The position numbers were made by a program, and so were the translations under genes. A model generated the notes under the pieces. The model did not search any database and was not told the DNA's origin. It worked only from the letters and a program-made list of their open reading frames with translations. A stretch of 61,820 bases of DNA from Bacteroidia bacterium (lineage in GTDB: Bacteria; Bacteroidota; Bacteroidia; NS11-12g; UBA9320), in the NCBI GenBank assembly GCA_017857855.1, contig JAFMCI010000007.1:1-61820 (forward strand), in the 5' to 3' direction. Every line of letters starts with the position of its first letter. Position 1 is the first letter of the stretch. Shown here piece by piece: positions 42,510 through 46,010 of this stretch.

Positions 42510-43169
42510 TTATTTGGCGATCACTTCATTAAATTTTTGAATAATTTGCTTTAAGCAAGCATCAAAATTATTATTGTTTTTGATAATATAATCGGCTGTT
42601 TCTTTGTGCGGCTTTAAGAATTCTGAGTAAGCTGGTTTTACATGGTTTTCCCATTGATACATAACCTCTTCTTCTTTCATGCCGCGCTCTACCGTATCCC
42701 GGCTCAGCCTCCTTTGCAATGTAATATCATCGTCAGCATCTATATATAATCGATAATCATACATTTTATTTAGGCCTTTGTCTGCGTATACAAACAACCC
42801 CTCCACTAATATAATTGGAGCAGGATTGTAAACGATTTCTTTGGGAAAAACATCCGGATTATTGAAGGTGTATTCTACCATTCTGACTGTCTTACCCTTT
42901 AATAAAGCACGTAAATCTTTTTTGATACGATTAAAATCAATCCCCGTAGGATGGTCAAAATTTACTACCCCATTGGCATCTCTCATTTGCTCTGAAAGAC
43001 CTTTATAATAATTATCCTGTGTGATGACACACACCTTATCAGCACCAAATTCTTCGCTCAATTTACGAATAAAGGTCGTTTTACCTGAAGCACTGCCTCC
43101 TGCTAAACCCACTAAAAAAGATGGCGAACTACTCACGGTGCGAATGTATATGAATTCTTCTTTTGTCAC
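42510..43169 (-). CDS. udk: Uridine kinase
   Basis: A 219-residue uridine/cytidine kinase of the pyrimidine salvage pathway. The P-loop is 'GLAGGSASGKTTFIRKL', followed by 'VCVITQDNYYKGL', 'NFDHPTGID' and 'PIILVEGLFVYADKGL' (Walker B region), and the lid 'RRLSRDTVERGMKEEE'. The start codon is GTG ('MTKEEFIYI'), supported by a TACGTTTG box (43195-43202) 25 bases upstream. It lies upstream of secDF on the same strand but with its own spacing of about 140 bases, so probably separate. Confidence 0.94.
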   Translation of the reverse strand: MTKEEFIYIRTVSSSPSFLVGLAGGSASGKTTFIRKLSEEFGADKVCVITQDNYYKGLSEQMRDANGVVNFDHPTGIDFNRIKKDLRALLKGKTVRMVEYTFNNPDVFPKEIVYNPAPIILVEGLFVYADKGLNKMYDYRLYIDADDDITLQRRLSRDTVERGMKEEEVMYQWENHVKPAYSEFLKPHKETADYIIKNNNNFDACLKQIIQKFNEVIAK

Positions 43170-43194
43170 TATTTAAGACCAATTAAAAATACCC

Positions 43195-43202
43195 CAAACG
43201 TA
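43195..43202 (-). promoter_or_regulatory. -7 box for udk
   Basis: TACGTTTG on the minus strand, 25 bases before the GTG start. The -33 element is not clear (TTG at 16 bases). Confidence 0.45.
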
Positions 43203-43326
43203 AACAGAAATGAATCATCAAGACTTCAAACACTTTATTATTGACTGAAATTCTGGCTTTCACATCTACAAAAAAAATCATCCGTTGCGCCAGTTAACGC
43301 ATAAACCAGCTAACTCACTTTTACCT

Positions 43327-43334
43327 TAATTTTG
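43327..43334 (+). promoter_or_regulatory. -7 box for the exported dikinase-like gene
   Basis: TAATTTTG, 25 bases before the ATG at 43360. No clear -33 element. Confidence 0.45.
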
Positions 43335-43359
43335 CGCTATCAATAATTATCGCTAGCAC

Positions 43360-45273
43360 ATGTCAAGACGACTTGCCACCTACATACCTTTTCCTAAAAT
43401 ATGGTTGCTTCTGGTCGTCCTCTTTTTTGTGCAATGCAACGCTCAAGTGAGTGAACTTACGCTCACAGATTCAGAGATGTTCGCGAAGATGAGTGGGCCT
43501 CCGCTTACCGATAAATATGGCGAGATAAGCAGTATAAAAGTAGTTTATGACTATAAGACTAAAAGCATATACTTCATCAATCATCACCGCTATAAATTGC
43601 ACCATGAGTTTTGTGACTATTTACGCGGATACGAGCAAGATTTAGCCACTTTTAATCGTATGAATTACGGTGCTGATGGCCAAAGACAATATTTACTTGG
43701 CAATATTAATTATGTAAAGTCTATGGATAAATATGCCTTAGAACTATCTCCAACGGACCAAATGCCGGTTTCGTCACTGGTCTTTTTTTACCACAAGATA
43801 TCGGAGAGTAGTTTTATAGGGGATGACCTTACTGTGCTTTTAAATAATACGCGACTCATAGCGATGGAAGAAAACTTAAAATCACTATTCCCGGTGATCT
43901 TACCCTCAGAAATTTATAAAAACATACAGTACCAGGGCATCAGTAAATATACTGGATTTGGCACCATTCGATTTATAGACAACATAGAGAAAAACCACGA
44001 ACCTCTCCAACCTACCGACATTTTAGTATTAAAGCATACACCGCTTACACTTCCTCGTGTTGCTGGGATTATAGTTTCAGAATTGCAAACCCCATTGAGT
44101 CACCTTACTATTTTAGGTCAAAATCGTAAAATACCTATAAGCGCTCTGAAAGGTGCTTTTGATAATGCAACAATCCGACAATGGGATGGTAAGCTAGTCC
44201 GATATGAGGTAAGGTCAGATTCATTTTCCATTCAAAAGATAAGTGAATTGCCCAAAACATCCATGACCACTGCTAAGGTTAAGCTACAAGCGAGTTTAAC
44301 TAAGAACACCTTATTGGACATAGATTTCGTTACCCGAAACTCCAGTAAAGATGTCGGGAATAAGGCTGCTAATTTTGGAGTTCTTTATCACTTGAGCAAA
44401 AAATACGATTTCAAAACACCGGAAGGAGCATTCGCTATTCCATTTTATTTCTACGACCAGCACCTGAAAAGTAGCGGCGCTCAAGCACTTTTAGATACAT
44501 TATTTGCTCACCCGTCATGGTCCGATAAACAGATAAAAGAAGCCTTAACCAAAATTCGAAAACAGATTAAGGAAGGCACATTAAATACAAAACTCTTATC
44601 TGAAGTAAAACAGAGGATGACATCTGATCCCTTATTTAATTCTATGCGATTTCGATCTTCAACCAATGCCGAAGATGCACTTGGGTTTTCTGGCGCTGGA
44701 CTATATTCTTCTAGAACAGGAAGTTTGACTGATATATCTAAACCGGTAGATAAAGCCATCAAACAGGTTTGGGCTAGCTTGTGGTCTTATGCAGCGTTTA
44801 TGGAACGGAGCTATTATAAAATAGACCAAAGCAAGGTGTATATGGGTGTACTTGTGCATCGCAACTTCCCAGACGAAGCCGTCAATGGAGTAGCAATCAC
44901 CAAAAATATTTACCGACAAGGAAACCATGGTTTTGTGGTAAATGTGCAATTAGGCGAAGAAAGTGTAGTGCAACCTACACCAGGTGTTACTTGCGATCAA
45001 TTTATTTGTTTCCCAAAGTCCGACGCTACTTTGTACCACAATAAGACCATTATTGACGTCTTGACTATTTCAAACCTAAATAACGGCTCACTCGTAATGA
45101 CAGAAAAGGAAATAACCCATTTGGCAAATCAGCTGGATTTGATAAAAAGGTATTATGCCTTGCGCAATATGACGGGCGGCAGCTATTTAGATTTTGGATT
45201 AGATCTAGAATTCAAACTACAGGGCCCAAAAAGAGACTTGTATATCAAGCAAGTAAGACTTTATAACGACTAA
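43360..45273 (+). CDS. Exported phosphohistidine/ATP-grasp dikinase-like protein
   Basis: A 637-residue protein with a signal peptide (about 1-29, 'WLLLVVLFFVQCNAQVSE'). After a unique region (30-220) comes a swivelling phosphohistidine domain with 'TPLSHLTILGQNRKIP' (His248), matching the catalytic His of PEP synthase and pyruvate phosphate dikinase. The C-terminal half is their ATP-grasp domain: 'VGNKAANFGVLYHL' (Lys335), 'MRFRSSTNAEDALGFSGAGLY' block (432-450) and 'LDLEFKLQGPKRDLYIKQVR' at the end. The PEP/pyruvate TIM barrel is absent. The order His domain then ATP-grasp is that of glucan water dikinase. All key residues seem intact, which is odd for an exported protein. Substrate unknown. 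Confidence 0.8.
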   Translation: MSRRLATYIPFPKIWLLLVVLFFVQCNAQVSELTLTDSEMFAKMSGPPLTDKYGEISSIKVVYDYKTKSIYFINHHRYKLHHEFCDYLRGYEQDLATFNRMNYGADGQRQYLLGNINYVKSMDKYALELSPTDQMPVSSLVFFYHKISESSFIGDDLTVLLNNTRLIAMEENLKSLFPVILPSEIYKNIQYQGISKYTGFGTIRFIDNIEKNHEPLQPTDILVLKHTPLTLPRVAGIIVSELQTPLSHLTILGQNRKIPISALKGAFDNATIRQWDGKLVRYEVRSDSFSIQKISELPKTSMTTAKVKLQASLTKNTLLDIDFVTRNSSKDVGNKAANFGVLYHLSKKYDFKTPEGAFAIPFYFYDQHLKSSGAQALLDTLFAHPSWSDKQIKEALTKIRKQIKEGTLNTKLLSEVKQRMTSDPLFNSMRFRSSTNAEDALGFSGAGLYSSRTGSLTDISKPVDKAIKQVWASLWSYAAFMERSYYKIDQSKVYMGVLVHRNFPDEAVNGVAITKNIYRQGNHGFVVNVQLGEESVVQPTPGVTCDQFICFPKSDATLYHNKTIIDVLTISNLNNGSLVMTEKEITHLANQLDLIKRYYALRNMTGGSYLDFGLDLEFKLQGPKRDLYIKQVRLYND

Positions 45274-45380
45274 GGTTTTAAGCTGATTTTATTTATGCCC
45301 GACCAACGACGCATTAATTCGACAAAACGACACAAAAACTTTGGAAACTATTAGGCTATTTAAAGTTTCCTGGGTTTTCT

Positions 45381-46010
45381 TTGCAGCGCATTTTGGACGA
45401 ATCACAAAAAATATTACTAGGGGCACTCGAGCTTTTTATGCGAATAGGCGTAAAAAGTGTGAGTATGGATGATCTTGCACGTGAACTAGGCATTAGCAAA
45501 AAAACGATATACAAACATTTTTCAGACAAAAGAGAACTCATTGCCTCGGTAATGAAAGCAGAAATCGCAAATGACGTAAAGTCATGTAACGAATGCTACA
45601 GCTCGCACGAAAATGCGGTTCAAAAAATGATTAATATAAGTCGTCATGTCAGTCGTCAGCACAAAGACATTAACCCAACGGTAATATATGATTTACAAAA
45701 ATATTATCCTGCCGAGTGGGGTCTTTTAGATAAACACAGGACGGAGTTTGTGCAAGAACTTATAGCCAGGAATGTACAAGAAGGACAAACAGAAGGGTTT
45801 TACCGTGACGATCTAAGCCCACTAACCGTGTCATCCATGTACGCAACGCTCATACAAGGAATGATGCATCAACTAGCATCCAAGGACAATACTTTCAAAT
45901 TTAAAACCCTACACTTAGAGATGGTTAGCTACCACTTGAATGGTATTTGCACGGACGCGGGAAGAGAATATTTACAACAACACATAACCGAAATAACAAA
46001 CGATCAATGA
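45381..46010 (+). CDS. TetR/AcrR-family regulator
   Basis: A 209-residue TetR-type repressor. The N-terminal helix-turn-helix is 'VSMDDLARELGISKKTIYKHF' (about 27-48); the C-terminal region is a diverse helical ligand domain. No in-frame ATG precedes it, so the start is a TTG at 45381 or a second TTG at 45393 that would give 'MDESQKILLGALELF'. The stop overlaps the TolC gene start (ATGA), so it heads the efflux operon and probably represses it, as TetR regulators of RND pumps do (inference). Confidence 0.88.
   Translation: MQRILDESQKILLGALELFMRIGVKSVSMDDLARELGISKKTIYKHFSDKRELIASVMKAEIANDVKSCNECYSSHENAVQKMINISRHVSRQHKDINPTVIYDLQKYYPAEWGLLDKHRTEFVQELIARNVQEGQTEGFYRDDLSPLTVSSMYATLIQGMMHQLASKDNTFKFKTLHLEMVSYHLNGICTDAGREYLQQHITEITNDQ

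Follow-up and report, generated by a model that had tools for sequence, protein, structure and literature searches.

The window (the whole 61,820-nt stretch of Bacteroidia DNA analysed here) contains a gene that, judging from its sequence and genomic context, would on balance encode an exported dikinase phosphorylating an acceptor that is secreted or at the cell surface, with a donor dependent on a VTC (polyphosphate polymerase)–DUF4956 cassette. The gene belongs to a widespread, apparently undescribed Bacteroidota family; in the open-access literature searched, no title or abstract opening describes an exported dikinase. An extracytoplasmic location is very likely and catalytic activity as a dikinase, predicted from the conserved residues, is likely, while a functional link with VTC, DUF4956 and CotH is fairly probable.

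Architecture and catalytic conservation

The gene and its features are as follows (window coordinates, strand, description):

43360..45273, +, whole gene, exported pHis–ATP-grasp dikinase-like protein of family A (637 aa, ATG start, PPDK_N E 9.6e-20)
43360..43443, +, signal peptide, residues 1-28, KIWLLLVVLFFVQCNA followed by Q (inspection and comparison with relatives)
43462..43929, +, N-terminal alpha/beta domain without known family, residues ~35-190 (alignment, AlphaFold, Foldseek)
43930..44259, +, phosphohistidine swivel domain, residues ~191-300 (Foldseek match to the RPH swivel region; weak GWD1_pHisD)
44101..44103, +, His248 in TPLSHL, phosphate-carrying histidine (invariant in 51 aligned sequences)
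44350..45258, +, ATP-grasp domain (PPDK_N), residues 331-633 (Pfam, profile search)
44362..44364, +, Lys335, equivalent of RPH/PPDK Lys22 (alignment of the GxKAAN motif)
44653..44676, +, RSSTNAED, residues 432-439, putative triphosphate-binding block (alignment)
45208..45258, +, E617 ... Q631 x R633, putative C-terminal metal/triphosphate motif, EFKL...IKQVR (alignment)

PPDK_N, which scored above its cut-off on residues 331-633, is the sole such Pfam domain in the window protein. GWD1_pHisD aligned with residues 233-296 below threshold (14.1 bits against a cut-off of 27, E 0.036), with a best E of 0.006 among the nine relatives checked. Pfam and alignment place the pHis domain first and the ATP-grasp at the C-terminus, after which the ORF stops, and neither Pfam nor NCBIfam matched a PEP-utilizers_C barrel in the protein. 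The initial annotation had described precisely this combination of pHis and ATP-grasp domains without a PEP barrel, and the ORF and the catalytic sites it had named (His248, Lys335, RSSTNAED and the terminal KQVR, residues 630-633) were all found where it had placed them. With a PPDK_N domain carrying the Lys, Arg and Glu and a swivel domain carrying the His both present, the sequence assigns the protein to the pHis–ATP-grasp dikinase superfamily.

The full-length AlphaFold model was poor (pLDDT 56), and the structural conclusions are drawn from a model of residues 31-300 (pLDDT 81, pTM 0.76). In Foldseek, the pHis part of this model aligned with the rifampin phosphotransferase (RPH) swivel region (E 1.9e-4, prob 1.00), a comparison proposed earlier. 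Pfam, NCBIfam and PDB sequences contained nothing matching the N-terminal ~160 residues, and Foldseek gave no credible PDB fold, so that their earlier description as unlike anything known holds for these sequence and fold libraries. H81, F98, Y103 and R109 are shared without exception by families A and B and retained by a Streptomyces homologue, and by alignment this stretch is a conserved domain despite matching no known family. We propose it as a candidate acceptor-binding or docking domain.

H248, K335 and R432 are invariant in an alignment of 51 sequences spanning families A to D and the Streptomyces homologue; E617 and R633 do not vary among the sequences that extend to them, and Q631 is conserved in all but one fragment at a contig end. 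The RPH lysine equivalent to Lys335 is essential (PMC4844700), as is the histidine of HpeH (PMC12167813); the metal-site Glu of RPH is dispensable upon mutation (PMC4844700), which makes E617 weaker evidence than the other residues. Compared with two congeners, the window gene showed a dN/dS of ~0.10 overall and of 0.07-0.10 in each mature domain, and is thus under purifying selection. The invariance of the catalytic residues and this selection reject a pseudogene, as the initial annotation had judged in reading the gene as no dead copy, and a loss of the catalytic His and Lys in most relatives, which it had named as a ground for abandoning its reading, was not seen. An exported binding protein that has retained the fold as a pseudoenzyme would fit the lack of a recognised acceptor site, but is very improbable given the lack of variation at the His, Lys, Arg and Glu in all sequences covering them and the purifying selection. 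As a separate observation, synonymous divergence between the window gene and the two congeners is ~0.39 in the pHis part (43930-44259) versus ~1.0 in the flanking domains, which suggests recombination or constraint.

Among known systems, the closest PDB sequence relative in single-sequence and profile searches is PEP synthase; PEP synthase and PPDK share the homologous ATP-grasp (the best sequence matches) and a pHis domain. Membership of that group was rejected on domain content and order, the window protein having no PEP/pyruvate TIM barrel and, by its predicted signal, being exported. In GWD the pHis domain precedes the ATP-grasp, and GWD/PWD resemble the window protein in this order, with the ATP-grasp C-terminal and no PEP barrel, in an LSH-type histidine motif and, as we propose, in using the N-terminal part to bind the acceptor. 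However, GWD is an intracellular, plastidic enzyme with a glucan-binding N-terminus, while the window protein carries a signal peptide ahead of an N-domain unrelated to that part; GWD membership was rejected because GWD1_pHisD lies below its cut-off and there is no starch-binding domain. More generally, no carbohydrate-binding Pfam domain was found in the window protein or the relatives searched. RPH shares the ATP-grasp, the swivel pHis fold and presumably small-molecule dikinase chemistry, but is cytosolic. Its domains run ATP-grasp, rifampin domain, pHis (PMC4844700); the opposite order in the window protein, which lacks a rifampin-binding domain, and an NCBIfam RIF_Ptrans score of 45 bits against a cut-off of 999 exclude membership. 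The aryl dikinases HpeHI, CreHI and PpsAB likewise combine ATP-grasp and pHis without a PEP barrel and have an acceptor domain of their own, but they are split over two polypeptides, serve cytosolic aromatic catabolism and carry a different acceptor domain. The window gene had no PADLOC match and no phage match, and roles in anti-phage defence or as a phage gene were rejected.

Family distribution and export

A relative from families A, B or C was present in 22 of the 395 sampled Bacteroidia genomes, with further ones in named contigs. Family A (~630 aa) includes the window protein; family B (~720-850 aa) has an extra CarboxypepD_reg-like stretch and another stretch; family C spans 830-1320 aa; and the more distant family D (~970 aa) has only the pHis–ATP-grasp core in common. 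Relatives occur in 4/19 genomes of the genus, the window genome counted, and three close relatives share 84-85% identity with the window protein (entries L003-L008 are three organisms, each present in two collections). The Streptomyces homologue (L065, 3517-6890, on a plasmid of Streptomyces sp. NBC_01471) has the same N-domain and no signal peptide, so the architecture is not everywhere tied to export. It adjoins an ATP-grasp ligase and an MFS transporter, and is probably a cytosolic form of the N-domain–pHis–ATP-grasp architecture, perhaps as part of a biosynthetic cluster for secondary metabolism.

Inspection of the window protein and comparison with its relatives back the clear signal peptide reported initially, with a likely signal peptidase I site between CNA and Q. 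The sequence FVQC26 resembles a lipobox but is non-canonical, with Gln at -1 (consensus [LVI][ASTVI][GAS]C), while several relatives have canonical or near-canonical lipoboxes. Among the relatives checked, 49 have a complete 5' end, and every one of these has a signal peptide, a lipobox or an anchor in the membrane at its N-terminus, the anchors of two of them (L016 and L022) appearing uncleaved; the sole exception, L010, is cut near a contig end. Since start codons were picked near a hydrophobic stretch, this comparison is a consistency check rather than a blind prediction. Hydrophobicity alone is also weak evidence, as 46% of a background set of unrelated neighbours had a hydrophobic N-terminus at the lower threshold of this crude measure.

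Support for export independent of the N-terminus comes from two long relatives, L029 and L031, in which Por_Secre_tail scored above the curated Pfam cut-off (the NCBIfam T9SS tail model was listed for L031 only) and which therefore carry a signal peptide plus a T9SS sorting signal. Pfam also identified extracellular add-on domains in some relatives. The window protein itself has no T9SS C-terminal sorting domain by Pfam. A T9SS-sorting-like stretch just under threshold (22.2 against 23 bits) was noticed in residues 76-142 of a family B member (L025, 853-3327), in an unusual N-terminal position before the core.

Cytosolic action, with the hydrophobic N-terminus being an anchor that faces inward or the product of a misplaced start, could draw on the signal-less Streptomyces homologue and on the two uncleaved-looking anchors. 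We regard it as highly unlikely in view of the signal shared by all members whose 5' end is complete, by which a wrong start codon was rejected, and of the T9SS tails, add-on domains and lipoboxes in several relatives. Homologues lacking the signal or starting further downstream, which were to count against export, were not seen in the Bacteroidota family, where signal and catalytic residues are conserved together.

Exported proteins of the histidine-phosphatase superfamily (branch 1) adjoin dikinases of family C and also occur close to one from family D (L085, 7135-7674; L088, 10743-11264; L098, 15073-15585). They are possible counter-acting phosphatases.

Genomic context and the VTC–DUF4956–DUF2490–CotH cassette

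The window gene has a divergently oriented udk on one side and, downstream, a run of tetR and efflux genes. Comparison of window positions 42510-46010 among 19 congeneric genomes showed that the dikinase is absent from 15; where both neighbours were seen in dikinase-free congeners, udk and tetR mostly stand head to head with ~90-170 bp between the matched parts, with wider gaps in L110 (~600 bp) and L111 (~1 kb). The dikinase is thus a single-gene gain or loss between udk and tetR, so the window neighbours say little about function, and conserved functional partners at this locus were rejected for a lone insert of this kind. Elsewhere in the window genome, VTC and DUF4956 are present with a DUF2490-cluster ORF beside them, together with three CotH matches.

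Clustering of neighbouring ORFs returned one informative recurrent neighbour for families A to C, DUF4956 (PF16316). It directly adjoins the dikinase, in convergent orientation, in G182 and six g81 genomes (a genus of another family), and hence is not co-transcribed with it there. In G141, Pfam places VTC, DUF4956, DUF2490 and the dikinase in this order on one strand, the likely dikinase start lying a few nucleotides past DUF2490. The order VTC, DUF4956, DUF2490, CotH recurs in G007, G018 and G020 (assigned with Pfam in G020 and in parts of G007, elsewhere through homology clustering), and in L100, L101 and L102 CotH holds the position taken by the dikinase in G141; given this equal gene order with CotH last elsewhere, the G141 dikinase stands in the slot of CotH. 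G483 has a CotH+LTD+T9SS protein divergently oriented next to the dikinase. Exported dikinase and CotH thus share an operon position and occur in the same genomes, but the likeness is one of place only, CotH having an unrelated protein-kinase-like fold, and Pfam found no CotH domain (PF08757) in the window protein. A CotH–polyphosphate polymerase–DUF4956 set has been described beside Pel exopolysaccharide loci (PMC7112168), in passages that make no mention of a dikinase.

In the tree, the dikinases of G182 and g81 group together, so adjacency to DUF4956 or the cassette represents at least two events rather than seven, and probably only two. A rough estimate for two chance adjacencies gives P about 4e-4 (7 slots in 3500 genes, 15 lineages). 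DUF4956 occurred in 210/395 sampled Bacteroidia genomes: in 22/22 with a family A, B or C dikinase versus 188/373 others (50%; Fisher P 5e-7, ignoring relatedness). Within g81, it was found in 6/6 dikinase genomes and in 0/4 genomes without the dikinase. In a hand-chosen set, relatedness again ignored, DUF4956 was found in 26/27 dikinase-positive versus 14/36 negative genomes and VTC in 20/27 versus 12/36. Family D served as a control and displayed no such link (DUF4956 in 3/8 genomes).

A rather unlikely alternative is an exported GWD-like enzyme that uses extracellular or released nucleotide and is unrelated to VTC and DUF4956, the co-occurrence reflecting lineages rich in exported proteins. 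It would accommodate the location of the dikinase away from the cassette in most genomes, the lone insertion in the window and the absence of VTC from 7/27 dikinase genomes, but it is at odds with the 22/22 versus 50% contrast, the two independent adjacencies, the replacement of CotH in G141 and the within-genus pattern of g81. The VTC–DUF4956–CotH link is new relative to the initial annotation, whose sequence-only view could not show it.

Candidate mechanism and phosphate donors

By homology, the ATP-grasp would bind a nucleoside triphosphate, the beta-phosphate would pass to His248, the gamma-phosphate would be released and AMP would leave; the pHis domain would then swing and hand the phosphate on to an acceptor bound by the N-domain, by analogy with GWD, RPH and HpeHI. 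From the context, the enzyme would work beyond the inner membrane, its acceptor being a glycan or protein that is secreted or at the surface, and would fill the functional niche of the CotH secreted kinase; its donor, nucleotide or polyphosphate, would be made available via the VTC–DUF4956 cassette. A role in phosphorylating a surface glycan is plausible, with glycan and protein about equally probable as acceptors.

ATP is scarce outside the cytoplasm, which weighs against the main reading and, together with the G141 operon, would suit a donor of polyphosphate instead of ATP, VTC making and threading out polyP from which the ATP-grasp draws phosphate. We consider this improbable, as several family members exist without VTC and we know of no ATP-grasp enzyme that uses polyP. 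In yeast, the polyP that VTC makes is moved across the membrane in a step coupled to its synthesis (PMC9911596), a precedent in favour of a polyP donor, by which the bacterial cassette could bring polyP or, less directly, nucleotide outside; the equivalents of the RPH residues that bind the alpha and beta phosphates of ATP (PMC4844700) are, however, invariant. A nucleotide is therefore favoured as the putative direct donor, from the conserved nucleotide-phosphate residues.

At the loci of the exported family D dikinases (L091-L095, L097 and L098), a pair of exported Beta-lactamase2-like hydrolases occurs together with a TLC ATP/ADP-transporter-like protein that contains HEAT repeats. TLC occurs in 9/12 family D genomes versus 2/63 without family D (1/27 A/B/C genomes and 1/36 others), and was accordingly rejected as a partner of the window's family. 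The family D loci offer an independent hint of donor supply to an exported dikinase, nucleotide transport by TLC being putative. A tentative scheme for Bacteroidota is that VTC–DUF4956 moves a high-energy phosphate carrier across the membrane, to be spent by either CotH or the exported dikinase on glycans or proteins that are secreted or at the surface, with family D as a parallel system that pairs a TLC-type carrier with a different exported dikinase.

Dikinase-type use of ATP is known from intracellular enzymes. Here, the operon that some relatives form with the polyphosphate-polymerase cassette suggests a phosphorylation system outside the cytoplasm. Conserved, apparently intact dikinases built for export raise the question of what powers periplasmic or surface phosphorylation in bacteria, and the operon that ties them to a polyphosphate polymerase and the small membrane protein DUF4956 makes one answer directly testable; it could assign roles jointly to DUF4956, DUF2490 and the exported dikinase.
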